DNA from: Swingsia samuiensis
Lineage (GTDB): Bacteria; Pseudomonadota; Alphaproteobacteria; Acetobacterales; Acetobacteraceae
DNA length: 64,000 nucleotides
Assembly: GCF_006542355.1 (NCBI RefSeq)
Contig: NZ_CP038141.1
Coordinates: 839,001-903,000, forward strand
Direction: 5' to 3'
Below, piece by piece: positions 28,117-58,880 of the stretch (positions are counted from its first letter, which is position 1; every line of letters begins with the position of its first letter). The notes beneath the pieces were generated by a model. That model made no database searches. It was not told where the DNA came from and was given only the letters and a program-made list of their open reading frames with translations. The position numbers and the translations under genes are program-made.

Positions 28117-29481
28117 CTAAACTTGTTTTTCTATCTTACCATTTTTCGAAATAAGTTTCTTATCTTTCATCAATTTTTCAATAATATTTATCACGCTTTT
28201 CCCTGTAATCAAACGCGTGCATTCAAACTGACGGTCCGTACCTTTATGTCTGGGGCACCACAAAAAGTCACTATGGTCAAACTGGTGAGCAGGATCATTC
28301 CAGCATGAATTACATGTATGCCAGTTGATAACACGATACGGCGTGAAAAACTCATTATTAGGATGTGTAAAACCGGAAATCATCACAACAGGCGTACCGG
28401 CAGCATGCGCTAACCATGATAGTCCACTAGAGAGACCAACAAAGAAGCTGGCATGTTTCAACCAACGTGCACGCTCTCCTAATGAGCGGTTACCCGTTTC
28501 ATCCTCAACGCCAAAAGGGATATGATTGTAAACATATCCGGTTCCATGAAACATTTTTTGGTCGATACAAACGACGCGAAAACCCGAGCGCTTGAGATAA
28601 TCAACAACTTCATGCCAACCCGCCGGATTATTCCAATATTTACACTGAGTACTCGCCTGAGTCGCTATCACGACATAAGGCTCTTTAATGGGTGGAGTAT
28701 CTCCATCTGGAATATCTAATGCGGGAGGCGAATCATCCCAAGGATTAATACCTAAAATATATGCTGCGGTTCTATGCAAGCCAACATGCCTAAAATCAGT
28801 TGGCTGATAGGTAAATTCTTTATCTTGGAAGAAAAGACCTAACTTATAAGTCGCATAGAAATCATCAGCGAACCCTTTTATCTTGGCCGCTTTATCCTTG
28901 CCTACAAACTTAATCTCAGGGTTTGCCTTTTCAACCAACGGCAAAATAACGTCTGCTATTGTACACGTGACATGTGCTTCGTTTTCTTTTGCAAAGCGAA
29001 TTACCGGCGGCAACCAAGCAAGAGTATCTCCAAGCGTACCAACAGGTAACTGAACGAGAACTCGTTGCCCTTTTAATGATAATTTATGATCGAGAATCTT
29101 TTCTTCAGTTCCATCTTTCTTCTGCAGCCAGACTTCTAACTCAAACGGAACAAAGAACTTTTTTGTAGAAGAAGCCATTCCTTGAGGAATATGGGCGTCA
29201 AATAAAATATTACCCATAGAATAATCTGATAATCTTACGTGCCACTGCTGATCTTTGTCAGCCAGAGGGGGGACCATCACGCGCGCGCCATCGTTAAAAT
29301 CAAAACGAATGCCCATTTTGCCTTCTATGGCTGGCGTTTGAGACGGCAGTACATAAGGGCTCTCTTGCTTTTCCTCCTTCGCTGATGACGGAGAAGCAGA
29401 AGCTTCACTTGTAACTGCAGAAGGAAGGCCTTCCTTCTCAGTTGTAGTCGATGATAATGAATCTGACTGTTGTTCCGACAT
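28117..29481 (-). CDS. Autotransporter strand-loop-strand O-heptosyltransferase (TibC/AAH-like)
   Basis: A 454-residue glycosyltransferase of the bacterial autotransporter heptosyltransferase group, which adds ADP-heptose sugars to serines in strand-loop-strand repeats of surface proteins. The N-terminal 40 residues are Ser/Thr/Glu-rich and probably disordered. A strand-rich N-terminal domain follows, then a GT9-like core with GTLGDTLAWLPP near residue 150 and the sugar-nucleotide region FFVGLSSGLSWLAHAAGTPVV near residue 355. Near the C-terminus four cysteines (CNSC, then single Cys in FLWCPRH and FECTR) match the iron-finger motif of TibC. The start is taken at the ATG at 29481; a GTG at 29487 is also possible. 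No autotransporter gene is adjacent; candidate substrates are the three repeat proteins at 50989-56924. Confidence 0.88.
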   Translation of the reverse strand: MSEQQSDSLSSTTTEKEGLPSAVTSEASASPSSAKEEKQESPYVLPSQTPAIEGKMGIRFDFNDGARVMVPPLADKDQQWHVRLSDYSMGNILFDAHIPQGMASSTKKFFVPFELEVWLQKKDGTEEKILDHKLSLKGQRVLVQLPVGTLGDTLAWLPPVIRFAKENEAHVTCTIADVILPLVEKANPEIKFVGKDKAAKIKGFADDFYATYKLGLFFQDKEFTYQPTDFRHVGLHRTAAYILGINPWDDSPPALDIPDGDTPPIKEPYVVIATQASTQCKYWNNPAGWHEVVDYLKRSGFRVVCIDQKMFHGTGYVYNHIPFGVEDETGNRSLGERARWLKHASFFVGLSSGLSWLAHAAGTPVVMISGFTHPNNEFFTPYRVINWHTCNSCWNDPAHQFDHSDFLWCPRHKGTDRQFECTRLITGKSVINIIEKLMKDKKLISKNGKIEKQV

Positions 29482-29773
29482 CGCCACAAGAGCTCCCAGT
29501 GTAAAATCTATCAAAAATCAACGTTTTTCTTAAAACATTTCCTCAAGCTATATAATAAGAAAAAGTATTTTTGGTTTGATTTTTATCACTAAAAAATTTT
29601 ATAAAATAAATTGTCTAAAACACTAAAAATCTTTTGAAATCAATCTAAAGCGTCACTCCCCCTACACTCAACCATTACTACTCCTGTAACAATTTTTTGC
29701 TTCCATTAAACATTCTACTCAAAAGAGCGTTAACTATAAAATTACGACTTCAAGATTAAATACGGGATTTCTC

Positions 29774-49495: not shown

Positions 49496-50889
49496 TTGGC
49501 TAAAAAACCGCTAAAACATTATATTTGCCAATCCTGTGGTACGAGTTATTCAAAATGGGCTGGGCGTTGCGAAGCCTGTGGAGAATGGAACTCTCTTGTT
49601 GAAGAAACAATCGAACCCACCGCACGCAAAACCGGCAAAATAAGTTCTTCTCGCAGGCTCACAACCGTTCGACTGGATGGTGATGCAACACCTCCCCCTC
49701 GAATAAAAACAAGTATTAACGAGCTTGACCGCGTTCTTGGTGGTGGATTGGTTCCAGCTTCTGTTGTTCTAGTCGGAGGCGACCCCGGCATCGGCAAATC
49801 AACCCTCATGCTTCAAACTACTTGCGCACTCGCTCAATCCGGGCACAACATATTATATGTCTCGGGCGAAGAGGCTGTTGATCAAATTCGCATCCGAGCT
49901 CAGCGTCTTGGTTTGGACAAAAAAGTAAAGCACTCGATACGCTTGATTTAGCAGCTTCGATCAATGTGGGAGATATTGTCAACTCCCTCGAGCATGATCG
50001 AAAACATACAGTTGTTGTTATTGATTCTATTCAAACCATGTGGCTTGAAAGTGTCGAAAGTTCACCCGGCTCTGTCGCGCAGGTTCGTGCTAGTGCTTTT
50101 GAACTGATCAGACTTGCAAAAACATTAGGCTTCGCTCTCATTTTAATCGGCCATGTTACAAAAGAAGGTTCTTTAGCTGGACCGCGTGTTTTAGAGCACA
50201 TGGTCGATGCGGTCATGTACTTTGAAGGGGACCGAGGCCACCAATTCCGTATCCTTAGAGCAGCCAAAAACCGTTTTGGAGCCACGGATGAAATCGGGGT
50301 CTTTGCTATGACGGATCTTGGCCTTCGAGAGGTTCCTAATCCATCCGCTCTCTTTTTAGCGGAAAGAAGAGGAAATATTGCAGGGTCTGCTGTATTCGCA
50401 GGGTTGGAAGGAACACGCCCGGTTCTACTCGAAATTCAAGCCCTTCTTTCCCCAAAATCAGGCGATGGCGCTCCAAGGCGTGCTGTCGTCGGTTGGGATA
50501 CGGCACGTCTCAATATGCTTCTTGCCGTGCTCGATACACGGTGTGGTCTCAAATTGGCGAATATGGATGTTCATTTAAATATTGCAGGGGGTCTACGCGT
50601 CAATGAACCTGCGGCTGACCTTGCTGTTGCAGCAGCGCTCATCTCTGCAGCGACAGACAAACCAACTTCCTCAAAAACAGCTTATTTTGGAGAAGTAGGC
50701 TTGTCGGGGGAAATCCGGCAGGTCAATCAAACCGACATCCGTCTTAAAGAAGTTAAAAAGCTTGGGTTTGAAAAAGTTATCTGCCCTCGAAAAATTACGT
50801 CTGAATCAACACGAAATAATGCGCCGAATGGACTCACTATTAGTGAGGTTGGTCATTTAACCGATCTTGTTAGTTTATTTAGTTCGTGA
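49496..50889 (+). pseudogene. radA: DNA repair protein RadA, one-base frameshift
   Basis: RadA processes branched recombination intermediates. The first part (TTG start at 49496, AGAGG five bases upstream) has the zinc finger CQSCGTSYSKWAGRCEACGEW and Walker A GGDPGIGKST, then stops at 49951. The second part (from about 49940) continues in another frame with VVVIDSIQTMW, the RadA motif KNRFG and a Lon-like C-terminal domain to 50889. Restoring one A in the A6 run at 49919-49924 joins the parts in frame (DKKSKALDTLDLAASINVGDIV) as a normal RadA of about 464 residues. A real mutation or a homopolymer error are both possible. A decayed copy of its 3' end lies at 52800-53055. Confidence 0.9.
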
Positions 50890-50988
50890 TTATTTCACAA
50901 AAATAACCTTTAGTTTATTTCCAAATAGACGCGATTGGTTATAATTATAAAGGATGTTTCTAATCTCATTCTAGGTCGAAGACTTATT

Positions 50989-52749
50989 ATGGACACAATC
51001 ATATCCAGCAGTGGATACGTTATAGATTCATCTGGCAATGTAACAGTACCTGCTGGGTCGGTTGTTTCAGGACAGCTTGTTTCCGGGGTAACACAATACG
51101 TCGCAGGCAGCGCAAACAGTACAACTGTTATTGGTCGAGCTGTTTTTTCTTTTGTCGATTCGTATGTACCAGATCCTTCTTCTCCTGGATCGTGGGTCCT
51201 AGCGCCTGGCTTTAGTTATAGTCAAAAATATGGTGCCATACCGCCAATAGGCGCTCAAATTGTTCAATCTGGCGGGACCGCAACCAATACAACTCTCAAC
51301 AGCACACCTACCGGAACCGGAAGCTTCGTTGGCGCAGGAATTGGCACTTTCGCCTCACAAACCATCGAGAATGGCGGGAAAGCCATTAATACAACAATCC
51401 AAGGAAGTCCATTTACCCCAACACCCGGTGTAGGCGGTTTCTATTCGCTAAATACTTACCCTACAACCCAAACCGTAAACAGCGGTGGCTTGATTTCTGG
51501 AACCAATGTTAATCTGCTTGGTGTTTCTGTCATTTCCTCTGGTGGTTATGCAACGAATACAACCGTCTCTGGTGGGGATGGTACTTTTGTCATAGGGGCA
51601 CTCCAATCTTCTGGATGGTTGGGTCAGCTCCCTTTAATGGCGCAACAGATCGTTTCTGGAACCTCTGAAAACATAAATATCCTTTATGATGGCTATGTTC
51701 AGGATTTCGGGAATGTCAGTAATGCAACTCTCTCCAGCGGTGGTATTCTTGAAATCGCTTCAGGGGGATCGGTCTCTAATATTACTGTAAATAGCGGAGG
51801 AACTGTTGCAATTGATCAAGGCGCTATTTTAAAAACTTCTCTGACTCTTCAAAGTGGCGCAAGTGTTATTTTCTCTGATATTAATGATTCCAATGGAATG
51901 GTCAGTTCTCTTATTACCCCAATGTCACAAGGGGCCAGTCAAGGGCACTTACAAGTTCTTTCTGGAGGAACTGTTCTTAAAGATATACCAGTCCAAGGTG
52001 ATGTCTCAGACACTCTTAGTAATTCGGAACTGACTTACCTTGTAACCTCGCAACGTCAATACGGTATTGGATACACTGATTACTTTTTTCACCCCCTCTC
52101 TGCTGGAGCTCTCGGTACTTTCTTGGGGGTGCAACCATATTTCCCATCTTCTTTCGGCACACCTTGTTTCTGCCCTGGAACACTCATTGCAACAGAACAA
52201 GGTGAAACCCCTATTGAAGAGCTTACCATCGGAGATCTCGTTCGGACAGCTTCTGGGGAAATTAGGCCCATCCACTGGATTGGACGCCGCTCTTATGATC
52301 CGCTCTTTGCTCATGGCAACCGTGATGTCATGCCCATCCTCATTCGCGCTGATGCGCTTGCTCCCGGTCTGCCTCAGAAAGATCTGACCATCTCTCCTTT
52401 ACATGCCATGTTTATTGATGGATTTTTAATCCCAGCATTACACTTGGTTAACGATCAATCTATTATACAACTCACTCCCTCCACCGAGATTACCTATATC
52501 CATCTTGAACTGGAATCACATGATCTGCTGATCGCTAATGGAGCACCGTCTGAAAGCTTTATCGATGACCGCTCTCGCAACATGTTCCATAATGCACACG
52601 AATATCAAACCCTATACCCACAAGCGCAACCTCAACCCGCCCATTACTGCGCTCCACGCCTTGAGGACGGTGTCGAATTGGCTCAAATCCAAACAAGGAT
52701 TAATCAACGCGCCAAAAACCTATTCCCCCTCCATAAACTTACAGCCTAA
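50989..52749 (+). CDS. Strand-loop-strand repeat protein with C-terminal Hint domain, paralogue 1
   Basis: A 586-residue protein. I choose the ATG at 50989 (MDTIISSSGYVIDSSGNVTV) because it matches the starts of both paralogues; the frame is open to 50935. Residues 1-345 are repeats of the autotransporter strand-loop-strand kind, with units such as QIVQSGGTATNTTLN, QTIENGGKAINTTIQG and VISSGGYATNTTVSG, rich in Ser, Thr, Asn and Gly. At about 393-535 follows a Hint (hedgehog/intein) domain starting at CFCPGTLIATEQGETPIEEL, with LTISPLHAMFIDG as the histidine block. The last 60 residues are helical. No signal peptide and no beta-barrel are seen. Hint domains can cleave at their first cysteine, which would release the repeat part. 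Repeats are likely substrates of a heptosyltransferase. Confidence 0.88.
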   Translation: MDTIISSSGYVIDSSGNVTVPAGSVVSGQLVSGVTQYVAGSANSTTVIGRAVFSFVDSYVPDPSSPGSWVLAPGFSYSQKYGAIPPIGAQIVQSGGTATNTTLNSTPTGTGSFVGAGIGTFASQTIENGGKAINTTIQGSPFTPTPGVGGFYSLNTYPTTQTVNSGGLISGTNVNLLGVSVISSGGYATNTTVSGGDGTFVIGALQSSGWLGQLPLMAQQIVSGTSENINILYDGYVQDFGNVSNATLSSGGILEIASGGSVSNITVNSGGTVAIDQGAILKTSLTLQSGASVIFSDINDSNGMVSSLITPMSQGASQGHLQVLSGGTVLKDIPVQGDVSDTLSNSELTYLVTSQRQYGIGYTDYFFHPLSAGALGTFLGVQPYFPSSFGTPCFCPGTLIATEQGETPIEELTIGDLVRTASGEIRPIHWIGRRSYDPLFAHGNRDVMPILIRADALAPGLPQKDLTISPLHAMFIDGFLIPALHLVNDQSIIQLTPSTEITYIHLELESHDLLIANGAPSESFIDDRSRNMFHNAHEYQTLYPQAQPQPAHYCAPRLEDGVELAQIQTRINQRAKNLFPLHKLTA

Positions 52750-52793
52750 ATGAACACCCCCATCACACCTATAGAGAGCCTTCTTGGACATGT
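52163..52793. repeat. Three-copy repeat: Hint-coding 3' ends
   Basis: The DNA of the Hint domain and tail is nearly identical in three places: 52163-52749, 54272-54859 and 56336-56924. The 5' halves of the genes are much less alike. The copies at 52163 and 56336 also share the tail and the first 44 bases of the next gene. This suggests recent duplication or gene conversion. Confidence 0.85.
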
Positions 52794-52842
52794 TCCCAAA
52801 GACGGGTCTCTAGCTGGGTTTGGGCCTTCGGGAGGGGCCTAA
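52750..52842 (+). pseudogene. Stub of the glycosyltransferase gene (first)
   Basis: The ATG at 52750 directly follows the stop of paralogue 1, as the intact glycosyltransferase gene does after paralogue 3. The first 44 bases match its start with one difference (MNTPITPIESLLGHV), then the sequence switches and the frame stops after 30 codons at 52842. The region beyond 52800 derives from radA. Confidence 0.85.
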
Positions 52843-53055
52843 TCCAGCCGCTCTCTATTTAGCGGAAAAGAGAAGAGATATTGCAGGAAGTACTCATGTC
52901 AATAACCCGAACCTGAGCTAACCTCGCTGTTGCGGCAGCGTTAATATCTGCCCTCGAAAAATTACGCCTGAATCAACACGGAATAATACCCCGAATAGAC
53001 TTAATATTAATGAGGTTGGTCATTTAACCAATATTGTTAATTTTTTTAATCGTGA
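52800..53055 (+). pseudogene. Decayed, internally deleted copy of the radA 3' end
   Basis: Several blocks match radA in order: one like 50316-50390 (CCTAATCCAGCCGCTCTCT and following), a short one like 50615-50640, and one like 50780-50889 with the final codons and stop (TCGTGA). Single-base changes and deletions between the blocks break every frame. Together with the preceding stub, it shows that the DNA from the radA tail onward was duplicated. Confidence 0.85.
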
Positions 53056-53158
53056 CCTTCACCTAAAAAGTAAATTTTAATTGATTTATTAATTATCCCG
53101 ACTAGTTATACATATTAATATTATTTGTAATCACCTAAATACTCACCGGAGAACTAAC

Positions 53159-54859
53159 ATGGATACATCCAGTGGCGGATACATTATAGACTCATCAACC
53201 GGCAATATCACCATTCCAAAAGATTCAGTAGTATCCGGGCAGCAGGTTTCCGGAGTAACTCAAAACGTTACAGGAAGTGCAACCGACACAACCGTCATGG
53301 GTGGGCCTTCCTTGAGTGCTTCTGGTCCTATAAACAATGCTTATTACCCTCCTGGAATTCAGACTATACAATCGGGTGGGACTGTAACGAACACGACTAT
53401 TATAGCAGATGGCATTAATGGCTATACTTATGGACAGTTTTTCTCTGCTCTAGCCTCTCAAACCATTGAAAATGGTGGACGAGCGATTAACACAACTCTT
53501 CAAGGGAACCTTAAAAATCCCCTTATCGGCACAGGAATAGCTGCCAATTATACTGTCAGTAATTTTTTAGCTTCACAAATTGTGTCCTCTGGAGGACAAG
53601 CCTCTGGAACCAATATTACGCCTGATGGACAATCTACTATTCTTTCTGGCGGATATGCAACAAATACCACCCTTCAAGGAGCCCAGAGCAATGTTCAATT
53701 GGGCAACTTTATATCTCAAAACGCAACAGTACCTTCACTTGCCCAGCAAATTGTTTATGGTACGTCCGAAAATATAAATATTCTCTCAAACGGCTATGTT
53801 AAAAATTTTGGTAACATTAATAACGTAACCGTCTCTAGCGATGGTGTACTGGAAGTAGCCTCCGGTGGAACCGCATCTAACATTACCGTAGCAAGTGGGG
53901 GTACCCTCGATATTGATCAAGGCGCTGTTTTTAACACACCGATTACCATTCAAAGTGGTGGGAATATCATTTTTTCCGATATTAATAATTCAAATGGCCT
54001 CATCAGCTCTTACATCACACCGCTTTCCGCAGGGGCACAAAAAGGAGAACTACAAGTCCTTTCAAGCGGCGTAACGCTCAAAAATATTCCTGTCCAAGGA
54101 GATATTTCAACCCCGCTTAGTAATAGAGCAATTAATTACAGCAATAAATCTTATGACCAATATGGCAATGTTATTTATGATCAAGCAGCCTCTTCTGACC
54201 TACGCCCCTTCCCGACAGGAGCTCTAGAAACATCATTGGGCACGCCTTATTTGTTTTCTGCCTTTGGCACACCTTGTTTCTGCCCTGGAACGCTCATTGC
54301 AACAGAAGAAGGTGAAACTCCTATTGAAGAACTCACCATCGGCGATCTCGTTCGGACAGCTTCTGGAGAGCTCAGACCCATCCACTGGATTGGACGCCGC
54401 TCGTATGATCCGCTCTTTGCTCATGGCAACCGTGATGTCATGCCCATCCTCATTCGCGCTGACGCCCTTGCTCCCGGTCTGCCTCAGAAAGATCTGACCA
54501 TCTCTCCTTTACATGCCATGTTTATTGATGGATTTTTAATCCCAGCATTACACTTGGTTAACGATCAATCTATTATACAAATCACTCCCTCCACCGAGAT
54601 TACCTATATCCATCTTGAACTGGAATCTCATGATCTGTTGATCGCTAATGGAGCACCGTCTGAAAGCTTTATCGATGATCGCTCTCGCAACATGTTCCAT
54701 AATGCACACGAATATCAAACCCTATACCCAGAGGCTCAATCACAACACGCTCATTACTGTGCTCCACGCCTCGAAGAAGGCGCCGAACTGGCTAAAATCC
54801 AAACCAGAATTAATCAACGTGCTAAGCATCTCTTCTCTACAGAAAAACTCACAGCCTAA
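53159..54859 (+). CDS. Strand-loop-strand repeat protein with C-terminal Hint domain, paralogue 2
   Basis: A 566-residue paralogue of the same plan: start MDTSSGGYIIDSSTGNITIP, strand-loop-strand repeats to about residue 330 (IQSGGTVTNTTII, QTIENGGRAINTTLQG, ILSGGYATNTTLQG, ASGGTASNITVASGGTLDI), a linker, then the Hint domain at about 373-515 (CFCPGTLIATEEGETPIEEL) and a helical tail. GGAG lies eight bases before the ATG. It has no signal peptide or barrel. Its tail differs from those of paralogues 1 and 3 at several positions (EAQSQHAHYC, STEKLTA). The upstream DNA, with the radA-derived tail, parallels that of paralogue 1. Confidence 0.88.
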   Translation: MDTSSGGYIIDSSTGNITIPKDSVVSGQQVSGVTQNVTGSATDTTVMGGPSLSASGPINNAYYPPGIQTIQSGGTVTNTTIIADGINGYTYGQFFSALASQTIENGGRAINTTLQGNLKNPLIGTGIAANYTVSNFLASQIVSSGGQASGTNITPDGQSTILSGGYATNTTLQGAQSNVQLGNFISQNATVPSLAQQIVYGTSENINILSNGYVKNFGNINNVTVSSDGVLEVASGGTASNITVASGGTLDIDQGAVFNTPITIQSGGNIIFSDINNSNGLISSYITPLSAGAQKGELQVLSSGVTLKNIPVQGDISTPLSNRAINYSNKSYDQYGNVIYDQAASSDLRPFPTGALETSLGTPYLFSAFGTPCFCPGTLIATEEGETPIEELTIGDLVRTASGELRPIHWIGRRSYDPLFAHGNRDVMPILIRADALAPGLPQKDLTISPLHAMFIDGFLIPALHLVNDQSIIQITPSTEITYIHLELESHDLLIANGAPSESFIDDRSRNMFHNAHEYQTLYPEAQSQHAHYCAPRLEEGAELAKIQTRINQRAKHLFSTEKLTA

Positions 54860-54949
54860 ATGAACAAACCCATCACTTCTTTTCTCGGTCACGTGGACGT
54901 TTACAACCACAATCATATTGCTGGCTGGGCTCCGCCCCCAGCCATATGA
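54860..54949 (+). pseudogene. Stub of a glycosyltransferase gene (second)
   Basis: The ATG follows the stop of paralogue 2 without a gap. The 29 encoded residues (MNKPITSFLGHVDVYNHNH, then IAGW) match the start of the intact glycosyltransferase (MNTPITPIESLLGHVDVCN, then VAGW) up to the AGW motif; the frame then ends at a TGA. It is a more diverged copy than the first stub. Confidence 0.8.
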
Positions 54950-55229
54950 TTTTCAGTTTGAGCTAACGATACTCAAAAATATTAAGGCTATCCCTTGTTC
55001 TATTTAACCATACAATAAGAGCAAGATTCTTAATTTAATATCATCCTCCATTAGAAGAGTTTACCATAAATATTCAACTAATAAGGTAAATTACTTAAAT
55101 AAAGTATCACTTTCATTCAAAAAAAATCTCAATAAATATGACACAAACATAACGATTAGTTTAATTTTTATATATCGTTAAAAAATATATAATAAGCCTA
55201 CTATTAAATAGGATTTTTGGAGATATGTT
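54950..55229. other. AT-rich gene-free stretch before paralogue 3
   Basis: No credible coding frame is seen. The DNA is very AT-rich and ends with a good ribosome binding site (TTTTTGGAGAT) for paralogue 3, so it should hold that promoter. No radA-derived sequence was recognised here, unlike the region before paralogue 2. Confidence 0.6.
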
Positions 55230-56924
55230 ATGGATACAACATCCAGTGGTGGATACATTATAGACTCATCTACCGGAAATATCACCATTCCAAAAGGTTC
55301 GATTATATCAGGGCAAATCGTTTCCGGGGTAACGCAATACGTTAACGGAAGTGCAATCGGTACATTAGTCAATTTTGTCAGTGCAGAAAGATTTCTTCCT
55401 CAAGACAACGCCTATCCTCCCAGCATTCAGATCGTACAATCTGGTGGCGTTGTAAGTAATACAACTATTATCTCTTCAGACACTCCTAGTCTAACTAATG
55501 GAGACCAGCCTTACACCCTTTTAGCGTCACAAAGCATTGAAAATGGAGGAACAGCAATCAACACAACCCTTCAAGGGGATTTCGCTAATTTCGGCGTCGG
55601 CACAGGAGAAAAATACTATGATGGAAGTGGCTATGTAGCTCCACAAATTGTATCCTCAGGCGGGCAAGCCTCCGGAACAAATATCAATTCCCTTGGAAAA
55701 TCTACCATTTTATCCGGTGGATATGCAACAAATACCACCCTTCAAGGAAGCAGTTATTACGCTGCGCTCGGCGATAACTCCGCACTAATACCTACACTCG
55801 CCCAGCAAACTGTATCCGGTACATCCGAAAATATAAATATCCTCTCAAACGGCTATGTTAAAAACTTTGGTAGTGTCAATAACGTCACCGTTTCTAGTAA
55901 CGGGCTTTTGGAAATAACTTCTGGCGGAATAGCCACAAATATTACTGTAGCAAGCGACGGTACCATCGATATTGATCAAGGCGCTATTTTTAACACACCG
56001 ATTACCGTTCAAAGTGGTGGTAATATCATTTTTTCCGATATCGATAATTCAAACGCCGTCATCAGCTCTCACATCACACCTCTTTCCGCCGGGGCACAAC
56101 AAGGGGAGTTACAAATCCTTTCAAGCGGCGTCATTCTCAAAAATATTCCTGTCCAAGGAGATATTTCAACACCAATGAGCAATACAGCAGTAGGTTACAG
56201 CAGCACATATTATAACTACTATCATACCCCTGTTTATGACCCCGCAGCTTCCTATTATTTACGTCCAATGAGCAGTGGTTCTCTCGAAACTTCATTCGGA
56301 AAACCTTTTGTATTTTCTGCTTTAGGAGGCGGTACAGCTTGTTTTTGCCCAGGTACCCTCATTGCAACAGAACAAGGTGAAACTCCTATTGAAGAGCTTA
56401 CCATCGGAGATCTTGTTCAAACAGCTTCTGGGGAAATCAGACCCATCCACTGGATCGGACGCCGCTCTTATGATCCGCTCTTTGCGCACGGCAACCGCGA
56501 TGTTATGCCCATTCTCATTCGCGCTGATGCCCTCGCTCCCGGTCTGCCTCAGAAAGATCTGACCATCTCTCCTTTGCACGCCATGTTTATTGATGGATAC
56601 TTAATCCCAGCATTACACTTGGTTAACGACCGTTCTATTATACAACTCACTCCATCCACCGAGATTACCTATATCCATCTCGAACTGGAATCTCATGATC
56701 TGCTGATCGCTAATGGAGCACCGTCTGAAAGCTTTATCGATGATCGCTCCCGCAACATGTTCCATAATGCACACGAATATCAAACCCTATACCCACAAGC
56801 GCAACCTCAACCCGCCCATTACTGCGCTCCACGCCTTGAGGACGGTGTCGAATTGGCTAAAATCCAAGCAATGATTAATCAACGCGCCAAGAACCTTTTC
56901 CCCCTCCATAAACTTACGGCCTAA
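55230..56924 (+). CDS. Strand-loop-strand repeat protein with C-terminal Hint domain, paralogue 3
   Basis: A 564-residue paralogue with the same plan: MDTTSSGGYIIDSSTGNITIP, repeats to about residue 330 (IVQSGGVVSNTTII, QSIENGGTAINTTLQG, ILSGGYATNTTLQG, SGGIATNITVASDG), then the Hint domain at about 371-513 and the tail. GGAG lies about nine bases before the ATG. The Hint part is nearly identical to that of paralogue 1; the first half is closer to paralogue 2. Its stop codon is followed immediately by the ATG of the intact glycosyltransferase, so the two are co-translated. No signal peptide or barrel. Confidence 0.88.
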   Translation: MDTTSSGGYIIDSSTGNITIPKGSIISGQIVSGVTQYVNGSAIGTLVNFVSAERFLPQDNAYPPSIQIVQSGGVVSNTTIISSDTPSLTNGDQPYTLLASQSIENGGTAINTTLQGDFANFGVGTGEKYYDGSGYVAPQIVSSGGQASGTNINSLGKSTILSGGYATNTTLQGSSYYAALGDNSALIPTLAQQTVSGTSENINILSNGYVKNFGSVNNVTVSSNGLLEITSGGIATNITVASDGTIDIDQGAIFNTPITVQSGGNIIFSDIDNSNAVISSHITPLSAGAQQGELQILSSGVILKNIPVQGDISTPMSNTAVGYSSTYYNYYHTPVYDPAASYYLRPMSSGSLETSFGKPFVFSALGGGTACFCPGTLIATEQGETPIEELTIGDLVQTASGEIRPIHWIGRRSYDPLFAHGNRDVMPILIRADALAPGLPQKDLTISPLHAMFIDGYLIPALHLVNDRSIIQLTPSTEITYIHLELESHDLLIANGAPSESFIDDRSRNMFHNAHEYQTLYPQAQPQPAHYCAPRLEDGVELAKIQAMINQRAKNLFPLHKLTA

Positions 56925-58880
56925 ATGAACACACCCATCACACCTATAGAGAGCCTTCTTGGACATGTTGACGTTTGTAACCGTCAACATGTGGCGGGGT
57001 GGGTTAACCCCCTCACAGACAACGGAGAACCTGCAACTCTTTGTATTCTCCAAAATGGTGTCCCTCTGGCTCACATTGTTGCAGATCTTTTCCGAGCAGA
57101 CCTTCAGGCCATCCGTCAGGGCTTTTGTGCTTTTGAGTATATTTTCCCAGAGCGTTTCAATTATGAAGGGGGTGTCATTGAGGTTATCAATGTATCAACC
57201 CAAACACCTTTACCGGGCTCCCCCATCTCAGTTGATCCCATTGCGGCTGAGTTACATGGAACCATTGATATTGTAGATAAAAAACATATAGCCGGATGGA
57301 TCTATGATAAATTATCCCCTGATCGGGTCGTGTGGCTAACACTCTGGATCAATGGAGAGTTCATTGACCATATTGCAGCCAACCAATTCCGCCGTGACCT
57401 TCGCGATATCGGCTTAGGCAGCGGCCGTTATGGCTTTGATTATATTTTCAAAGATCCTCTACTACCCAACGCAAGCTACACTCTACAGCTTAAACATGGC
57501 ACTGAAACGTTTGGCCAACCCCTCCATTTATCTACATCGCAAGAATTAGACCTAGATACACAAGACCATCTCAGCGCCATTTTGCAAAATCTACGTAATC
57601 ATCAAGCACAGACAGATGCTCTTCTTTTTCTTAATCAAGAAATAAGCAAATTAAAAAGACAAGTCAGTCATTCAACGGTGCAGCACTTTGAACGCACTGT
57701 CTCGACACGATTAGGACGGCGTTACGAAGATTTTCCGCCTCCTCCTCCCTGCGTTCTCTTTATTGATGATCGCGCACCCAACCTAAACTTTGATGCAGGG
57801 TCTCACGCGCTTCTATCACACATGCAAGCCGCCCAGTCTCTTGGGTATAAATGCCTTTTTATTTCTTCTCGTAAAACAATATCTCACGATGAAATAACCT
57901 CTTTAGAAAAACAGGGCTTTGAAGCATTAACTGCTCCGTTCTTTAACACTCCTGAAGAAGCCCTAAAGCTCATTGGTACGGATTTAACCGCCATTTACCT
58001 GCATAGGCTTAACAACGCAGAATCTTACTCAAGCTTAATACGGGCTTTTGCTCCAACAGCCACCCTTATCTGGAGTATTGCTGATCTGTCGTCACTTCGC
58101 CTCAGGCGCCAAGCAGAGGTTGAAACACGGCCTGAAATTTTACAAACCGTACCTACTCTCGAAGTCCGGGAGAATATGTGTTCCTGGGTGGCGGATATAA
58201 CAATCACTCATTCCCCCATTGAAACGGAGCGGCTCAAAACTCTTGTTCCCGTTGCCAATATTCACACTATTCCATGGGGCGTTCCCATTCTTAACGCACG
58301 CGCATCTTTAAAAAAACAACCTGTTCTTGTTTTTCTTGCTCACTTTGCTCATTCACCCAACATTGATGGGGCAAAATGGTTTGCCTTTAAAATCCTTCCT
58401 TTATTAAGAGAAAAACTTCCTAACGTTATTTGTCGCTTCATTGGAAGCGCCATGCCTCACGAGATTCATACGCTCAAACAGCCAGGTCTGGAAATTTTAG
58501 GCCATATTCCAAATCTTTCTGAGGCTCTTAAAGGCGCTGCGATGTGTATCGCCCCTTTGCGTTATGGATCCGGCATAAAAGGTAAGGTTCTGGAAAGCTG
58601 GTCTTATGGACTCCCTATCGCCATGACACCAACTGCCGCAGAAGGGATTATTAACTCTACCCATCCTTTATGGGATTTATCTGTTGGGGAAACAGAAGAA
58701 CAATTTGTGAATAAAATTCTTGCCCTTCTTGTTCCTAAAAATGCCAAACTTTGTATCAAAGAAGGCCAAAAACTACTCAAACAATCTTTTTCACAAGAAA
58801 TAGTTCAAGAAAAAATATCACACTTTCTACCTCCCGTTGAAAATGACACTCTACCTCGTGACAACACCCGACCCTCATAA
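56925..58880 (+). CDS. Glycosyltransferase (GT4-like) with two N-terminal repeat modules
   Basis: A 651-residue protein. Two similar modules occupy residues 12-74 and 110-176; both read G-h-D-h-x5-AGW, then NG, then HI-x-A-x2-FR-x-DL, then F-x-YIF. I do not know their function, though such modules are found in other Acetobacteraceae proteins. A helical linker (about 195-250) follows. Residues of about 275-640 form a GT-B glycosyltransferase: DDRAPNLNFDAGSHALLSHM near the start of the core and LGHIPNLSEALKGAAMCIAPLRYGSGIKGKVLESWSYGLP-type C-terminal motif, here in parts. No signal peptide, so it acts in the cytosol. It begins directly at the stop of Hint paralogue 3, suggesting that it modifies that protein. 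Donor sugar unknown. Confidence 0.86.
   Translation: MNTPITPIESLLGHVDVCNRQHVAGWVNPLTDNGEPATLCILQNGVPLAHIVADLFRADLQAIRQGFCAFEYIFPERFNYEGGVIEVINVSTQTPLPGSPISVDPIAAELHGTIDIVDKKHIAGWIYDKLSPDRVVWLTLWINGEFIDHIAANQFRRDLRDIGLGSGRYGFDYIFKDPLLPNASYTLQLKHGTETFGQPLHLSTSQELDLDTQDHLSAILQNLRNHQAQTDALLFLNQEISKLKRQVSHSTVQHFERTVSTRLGRRYEDFPPPPPCVLFIDDRAPNLNFDAGSHALLSHMQAAQSLGYKCLFISSRKTISHDEITSLEKQGFEALTAPFFNTPEEALKLIGTDLTAIYLHRLNNAESYSSLIRAFAPTATLIWSIADLSSLRLRRQAEVETRPEILQTVPTLEVRENMCSWVADITITHSPIETERLKTLVPVANIHTIPWGVPILNARASLKKQPVLVFLAHFAHSPNIDGAKWFAFKILPLLREKLPNVICRFIGSAMPHEIHTLKQPGLEILGHIPNLSEALKGAAMCIAPLRYGSGIKGKVLESWSYGLPIAMTPTAAEGIINSTHPLWDLSVGETEEQFVNKILALLVPKNAKLCIKEGQKLLKQSFSQEIVQEKISHFLPPVENDTLPRDNTRPS

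Follow-up and report, generated by a model that had tools for sequence, protein, structure and literature searches.

Tandem strand-loop-strand/Hint proteins in Swingsia samuiensis with a TibC-type heptosyltransferase and a Hint-linked glycosyltransferase: a candidate non-autotransporter glycoprotein system

The closest described relatives of the locus considered here are TibC/TibA and AAH/AIDA-I, in which a heptosyltransferase of the BAHT group acts on strand-loop-strand (SLS) repeats and whose heptosyltransferase gene is often followed by that of an autotransporter (PMC4358343). Hint domains are known from other settings, such as the B-type BIL domains (PMC7765530), the Hedgehog proteins (PMC7664689) and the RTX and Hint proteins of Rhodobacteraceae, two domain types that are over-represented in marine bloomers (PMC12487129). 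The present analysis concerns a stretch of 64,000 nt from Swingsia samuiensis (contig NZ_CP038141.1, 839,001 to 903,000 of the forward strand; hereafter the window), in which three neighbouring genes, A to C, each join SLS repeats to a Hint_2 domain, a fourth, D, encodes a GT4 glycosyltransferase, and a TibC/AAH-type heptosyltransferase is encoded at some distance. The products of genes A-C are read here, with a probability of roughly 0.6, as glycosylated, self-processed secreted or surface β-solenoid proteins with a Hint-linked glycosyltransferase and a non-autotransporter export route.

With TibC/TibA and AAH/AIDA-I the locus shares a full-length heptosyltransferase with its catalytic and iron-finger residues, an SLS solenoid, and the co-occurrence of the two. 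It differs in that the heptosyltransferase is partnered by a Hint_2 protein, which has no barrel and no clear signal peptide, that a second, Hint-linked GT4 enzyme is present, and that the TibC gene is often not adjacent. B-type BIL and Hedgehog proteins have in common with it the Hint fold, the nucleophilic Cys and the missing C-terminal motif, whereas here a glycosyltransferase accompanies the Hint domain or is fused to it, and the passenger is a TibC-type repeat domain. The Rhodobacteraceae proteins carry the same PF13403 domain, and some Acetobacteraceae Hint_2 proteins also have RTX repeats; in the window, however, the passenger is SLS instead of RTX and the partners are TibC and a glycosyltransferase. 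Genes named by NCBI as "Hint domain-containing protein" on Acetobacter, Gluconobacter and Neokomagataea plasmids are homologous over repeats and Hint, and have so far only been named. The features on which the argument is built are as follows.

50989..52749, plus strand: gene A, SLS repeats (about 1-300), Hint_2 (392-527) and C-terminal tail, 586 aa
53159..54859, plus strand: gene B, SLS repeats, Hint_2 (372-507) and C-terminal tail, 566 aa
54275..54277, plus strand: codon of Cys373 of gene B, the predicted Hint nucleophile and first Cys of CFCPGT
55230..56924, plus strand: gene C, SLS repeats, Hint_2 (371-505) and C-terminal tail, 564 aa
56925..58880, plus strand: gene D, GT4 glycosyltransferase, 651 aa
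28117..29514, minus strand: TibC/AAH-type strand-loop-strand O-heptosyltransferase (TIGR04414), 465 aa, TTG start

An earlier, sequence-only reading of this DNA had recognized SLS repeats and a Hint domain in each of the three neighbouring genes and had proposed that the two parts be searched separately against profile databases. Both families were confirmed in this way, and the open reading frames (ORFs) of genes A, B, C and D were all found at the positions which that reading had assigned to them; for gene A an upstream TTG start is possible at 50935, while the ATG at 50989 agrees with the paralogues. The repeats match TIGR04415 with E values of 5.5e-16 (A), 1.2e-14 (B) and 6.2e-9 (C), each protein having 4-5 such stretches within roughly residues 1-280, and PF13403 (Hint_2) is matched at 4e-44, 2e-44 and 2e-44, respectively (about 151-152 bits against a cut-off of 28.4). 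Two parts of the proteins had escaped the sequence-only reading: one is the linker that occupies about 330-370, the other a conserved tail, about 55-60 aa long, behind the Hint domain (YCAPRLExGxELAxIxxxINxRAK). The placement of a glycosyltransferase at zero gap behind the third gene was borne out, since the TAA of gene C ends at 56924 and the ATG of gene D begins at 56925. Gene D itself encodes two N-terminal repeats (HVAGW...), a probable coiled coil and a Glyco_trans_1_4 domain (466-602).

The association of this glycosyltransferase with Hint domains extends well beyond the window. Gene D was searched against 60 whole Acetobacteraceae genomes (about one per genus) and the loci, numbered L below, were then inspected, a design that makes the linkage less prone to ascertainment bias. 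Of the 13 ORFs that scored best (phmmer E <= 4e-67), 12 are either fused to a Hint domain or directly adjacent to one, a degenerate Hint being counted among them. Fused forms were found in L055, L088, L147, L186, L188, L189 and, with the degenerate Hint, L187; the glycosyltransferase abuts a Hint domain in the window, L069, L070, L083 and L144, and L194 is the sole exception. The weaker hits L190-L193 and L195-L197 stand alone, and the more distant L155 and L198 have a Hint domain again. In the fused ORFs both domains, Hint_2 and GT4, were confirmed by Pfam, and L055 and L088 are SLS-Hint-glycosyltransferase fusions. Separate trees of the glycosyltransferase and Hint domains, in which some node supports are low, have six sister pairs in common; in four of them one member is fused and the other adjacent. 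As the pairs recur and mix both forms, the two domains appear to have been inherited together, with fusion or fission probably having happened repeatedly. In the fusions L147, L188 and L189 no SLS repeats were detected at the thresholds used, and the genomes G022 and G023 contain the glycosyltransferase and lack TibC; thus, TibC tracks the repeats and the glycosyltransferase tracks the Hint domain. The sequence-only reading had spoken of a dedicated glycosyltransferase and had suggested looking for the same pair in other Acetobacteraceae. The pair is indeed recurrent, but the dedication is to the Hint domain rather than to the repeats. The fusion L187 (L187:2882-5419) is of interest in its own right as a glycosyltransferase with a degenerate N-terminal Hint domain in which no block-B His was seen, and no passenger.

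The second enzyme of the window had been recognized as a heptosyltransferase at 28117-29481. Its identity stands, and its extent is better given as 28117-29514 with a TTG start, 29481 being the first ATG of the frame. The protein matches the equivalog-level model TIGR04414 over its full length (E 2.3e-170; 566.6 bits, cut-off 200) and the TibC crystal structures in the PDB (4rb4/4rap) at E 1e-121. Of the catalytic and iron-finger residues described for TibC (PMC4358343), the protein retains Asp110, Lys230, Arg286, Trp305 and all four Cys of the iron finger, with Ser in place of Thr226; position 110 is Ala in 4rb4 and Asp in the window enzyme. For the ADP-heptose pathway the same genome encodes an HldE-type kinase, which scores above the cut-off of its model. 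This genome also has a second TibC homologue (L067:9310-10641; G000:C1 about 1494810-1496141), whose surroundings (about 9 kb) contain neither a Hint nor an SLS gene.

Across the 60 family genomes, TibC was found in 15, SLS repeats in 15 and both in 13 (Fisher p 2e-9; all p values given here ignore phylogeny), while Hint_2 is present in 46. The window's genome (2.19 Mb) alone contains 11 Hint_2 genes in several clusters, and all 12 of its SLS matches lie inside Hint_2 ORFs. In the neighbourhoods retrieved from the family genomes, 37 of the 42 SLS ORFs carry a Hint domain; of the other five, three are truncated at the end of a locus or contig, that in L051 runs into Ns, and that in L076 has an RTX-like C-terminal end. 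The hidden Markov models behind this count were built from sequences gathered in the analysis, and their detection limits differ from those of Pfam and NCBIfam. TibC adjoins an SLS-Hint gene in L053, L055, L059 and L064 and lies about 8 kb off in L065/L066. Pfam scans detected an autotransporter barrel domain in 0/35 SLS-Hint proteins. Since a C-terminal Hint_2 is the rule among the SLS ORFs and a barrel is missing from every scanned protein, the partner of TibC in Acetobacteraceae is a Hint protein. The term autotransporter-type in the sequence-only reading therefore holds for the repeat family and fails for the proteins as a whole: the window proteins lack the barrel as well, and their identification as autotransporters was rejected. 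At the level of the class, TibC occurs in only 2 of 142 alphaproteobacterial genomes, both of them Acetobacteraceae, and SLS repeats in 4/142, so that the TibC-SLS-Hint system looks family-centred within an alphaproteobacterial sample that is thin. The SLS protein of L076 (L076:6030-8093) carries its RTX-like C-terminus in place of Hint, as judged by eye, where Pfam sees only AIDA repeats; an apparent hldE gene, also recognized by eye, is located nearby (L076:2576-4072).

Structure comparison points in the same direction. A PDB sequence search with a three-protein profile of A-C matched Ag43 and TibA, and in Foldseek the N-terminal part of an AlphaFold2 model of gene B matched Ag43 (7kob, E 5e-10) and the heptosylated TibA55-350 (4q1q, E 3e-9). 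The C-terminal part of the model matched inteins and BIL domains with a probability of 1.00 and E values of only about 2e-3 to 2e-2; a model of the Hint region by itself led to the same folds, at a best E of 2.5e-4. In both models the Hint part is of low confidence (pLDDT 56-57, 6 sequences), and the fold assignment alone was used. The best PDB match of the Hint alignment profile is again a BIL domain (2lwy, E 1e-4).

The Hint domains of the family are strongly conserved at positions expected of an active site. In 77 aligned domains, which are about 40% identical to one another, Cys1 is present in 100%, the block-B His in 99%, Glu131 in 100% and further His/Glu positions in 96-100%; an alignment of 55 sequences shows no variation at Cys, His and Glu. 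At its C-terminal end the domain has the motif A[EN]GxxxES[FY] (ANGAPSESF in gene B), and the Asn followed by Cys, Ser or Thr that would mark a splice junction is absent from the aligned domains. Because Cys1 is kept while the C-terminal Asn and nucleophile are absent, as in the definition of B-type BIL domains (PMC7765530) and in Hedgehog Hint domains without the C-terminal motif (PMC7664689), the alignment predicts an N-S acyl shift followed by N-terminal cleavage or transfer rather than splicing. Full class 1 intein splicing was rejected for want of the C-terminal His-Asn and the +1 Cys/Ser/Thr.

From these sequence features we infer glycosylation, cleavage, an export route, a surface location and a glycosyltransferase substrate along the following lines. 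Genes A-C would be made as precursors of secreted or surface β-solenoid glycoproteins. In the cytosol, the TibC homologue would place heptose on the SLS repeats, as TibC does on TibA and AIDA-I, an assignment that follows from the strong TibC homology and the co-occurrence of TibC with SLS. A thioester would then form at the first Cys of the Hint domain, and the N-terminal passenger would be cut off or handed over, as suggested by the invariance of the active-site residues. The GT4 enzyme, evidently a partner of the Hint domain, is expected to act together with the precursor's Hint part (in cis in the case of a fusion), and may either add further sugar to the passenger before its release or supply a glycan acceptor for the thioester. 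Export, the weakest step, would bypass the autotransporter route and most likely use type I secretion. Meanwhile, the paralogues would diversify the repeat half and keep the Hint half nearly constant. In a more specific and tentative version, which we consider rather unlikely, the solenoid-Hint-glycosyltransferase fusions are polyproteins in which enzyme and substrate share one chain; the Hint domain would cut the finished passenger off, or transfer its C-terminal thioester to a nucleophile, sugar or glycolipid, that the glycosyltransferase has made. If so, the latter transfer would be a bacterial counterpart of cholesterol attachment in Hedgehog proteins.

Several other explanations fit part of the data. 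The glycosyltransferase might simply glycosylate the SLS repeats, extending the heptose placed by TibC, with the Hint link a by-product of neighbouring SLS-Hint genes. It does follow an SLS-Hint gene in the window and forms the third part of the fusions L055 and L088, but the fusions without detected SLS, the two genomes that have the enzyme and lack TibC, and the six sister pairs shared by the Hint and glycosyltransferase trees make this a doubtful account. It is also conceivable that Hint_2 is not an enzyme here, and serves as a conserved C-terminal module for recombination and export that lets paralogues swap their N-terminal repeats without any processing. The near identity of the Hint halves among local paralogues, the identical scores of three copies at 779-788 kb and the degenerate Hint of L187 would suit such a module; conservation of Cys1, the block-B His, Glu131 and the other active-site positions at 96-100% among domains of about 40% identity is hard to understand without catalysis, and we regard the proposal as distinctly improbable.

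A precursor of the polymorphic toxin kind, in which the Hint domain frees a C-terminal toxin as discussed for BIL domains in MafB/CDI-type proteins, would account for the variability of the paralogues, and BIL/Hint domains do occur in such toxins according to the literature. In the present proteins, however, only the conserved tail or the glycosyltransferase lies behind the Hint domain, and it is the N-terminal passenger that varies, which renders this reading very improbable; Pfam scans of the window and the 35 SLS-Hint proteins revealed no C-terminal toxin domain, and toxin delivery was rejected. Finally, the repeats belong to the AIDA/Ag43/TibA type, as they would in broken autotransporters that had lost signal peptide and barrel. 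The same architecture is nevertheless intact in many other genera of the family, in long and conserved ORFs of which 0/35 show a barrel, and decay of this kind is scarcely credible.

The preferred reading, a heptosylated and Hint-processed solenoid protein exported by a route other than autotransport, has its own difficulties. The heptosyltransferase gene lies about 21 kb away from the A-D array, the link between SLS and Hint is not absolute (5/42 SLS ORFs are without Hint), confidence in the Hint part is low in both structure models, and the fusion of L187 indicates that a Hint-glycosyltransferase module can serve otherwise. Others concern the proposed type I secretion: co-occurrence of Hint and HlyD2 is weak (p 0.058), Hint genes lie near type I secretion genes in few neighbourhoods only, close to a rough chance estimate, most genomes show no such linkage, and a C-terminal secretion signal is hard to picture on an intact precursor that ends in a glycosyltransferase.

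The evidence in favour of this export route comes from neighbourhoods of two types of type I secretion system in the family, several of them hand-picked. A C39-type ABC transporter and HlyD pair precedes a Hint_2 gene in the window's genome (L033) and adjoins one in L115. The HlyD2-type system, a second conserved locus that includes glycosyltransferases, occurs in 15/15 TibC genomes (p 0.026), and in L142 TibC stands at the end of its cluster. RTX repeats were seen in 2/35 proteins of the Hint_2 alignment A3, with an M10_C domain in one. A crude hydropathy scan gave no convincing Sec signal in most SLS-Hint proteins, although one outer-membrane control scored just 1.46; L059:12529 scored 2.7 in a region possibly upstream of the true start. 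The Hint_2 protein of L033 (L033:8640-10202) is without SLS and lies directly behind the peptidase-C39 ABC transporter and HlyD genes (L033:5628-7862). A conserved locus in the family, ABC-HlyD-Sel1-large double glycosyltransferase-DUF (L037:7514-17046, with homologues in L124-L143), looks like a type I secretion system with glycosyltransferases of its own; its HlyD gene occurs in 47/60 genomes, and nearly all of the 20 neighbourhoods inspected contain the complete locus.

No description of Hint-glycosyltransferase polyproteins, or of a partnership of Hint proteins with TibC or a glycosyltransferase, was found in the literature searched, a partial collection and hence weak evidence, which suggests that this variant of the TibC-SLS glycoproteins is new. 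If the preferred reading is true, TibC-type heptosylation moves beyond autotransporters and is tied to self-processing Hint domains. The literature searched also offered no explanation for the role of Hint in many PF13403 proteins, and the Hint-glycosyltransferase fusions are a lead on the purpose of the bacterial Hint acyl thioester, be it release or attachment to a glycan. Should the Hint domain ligate its passenger to a sugar or lipid acceptor, this would amount to Hedgehog-like conjugation in bacteria and might provide a tool for protein conjugation.

The array also retains traces of its own history. In 40-codon blocks, the Hint halves of A-C are mostly 77-98% identical in nucleotides; for the repeat halves the values are mostly 40-80%, and single blocks reach 91%. 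Two spacers separate the three genes.

52750..53158, plus strand: spacer A-B, beginning with a 45-bp remnant of the start of the glycosyltransferase gene (97.8% identical)
54860..55229, plus strand: spacer B-C, beginning with a more diverged remnant of the same start

The remnant in spacer B-C reads MNKPITSFLGHVDVYNHNHIAGWA against MNTPITPIESLLGHVDVCNRQHVAGWV in the glycosyltransferase gene, a similarity seen in pairwise alignment only and below the BLAST threshold of 1e-3. Spacer A-B further contains stretches derived from radA (88% over 104 bp and 86% over 65 bp) and, on its sequence, would be the scar of a tandem duplication. Since both spacers retain glycosyltransferase starts, the ancestral unit was presumably Hint plus glycosyltransferase, and the simplest reading is that this unit was duplicated in tandem and two glycosyltransferase copies decayed. 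Upstream of the array, radA itself (window 49496-50889) is split between two reading frames, and the break, around 49940-49966, reflects a frameshift or an assembly error; the copy in spacer A-B corresponds to its 3' part and is diverged. Elsewhere in the genome, three tandem SLS-Hint genes of 1029, 1636 and about 1447 aa (L034/L035; G000:C1 about 778.9-791.7 kb) have identical Hint scores, as if the Hint half were evolving in concert. The family also occurs on plasmids, as exemplified by the 3.85-kb plasmid NC_021979.1 of Acetobacter pasteurianus 386B, which bears a Hint_2 gene.

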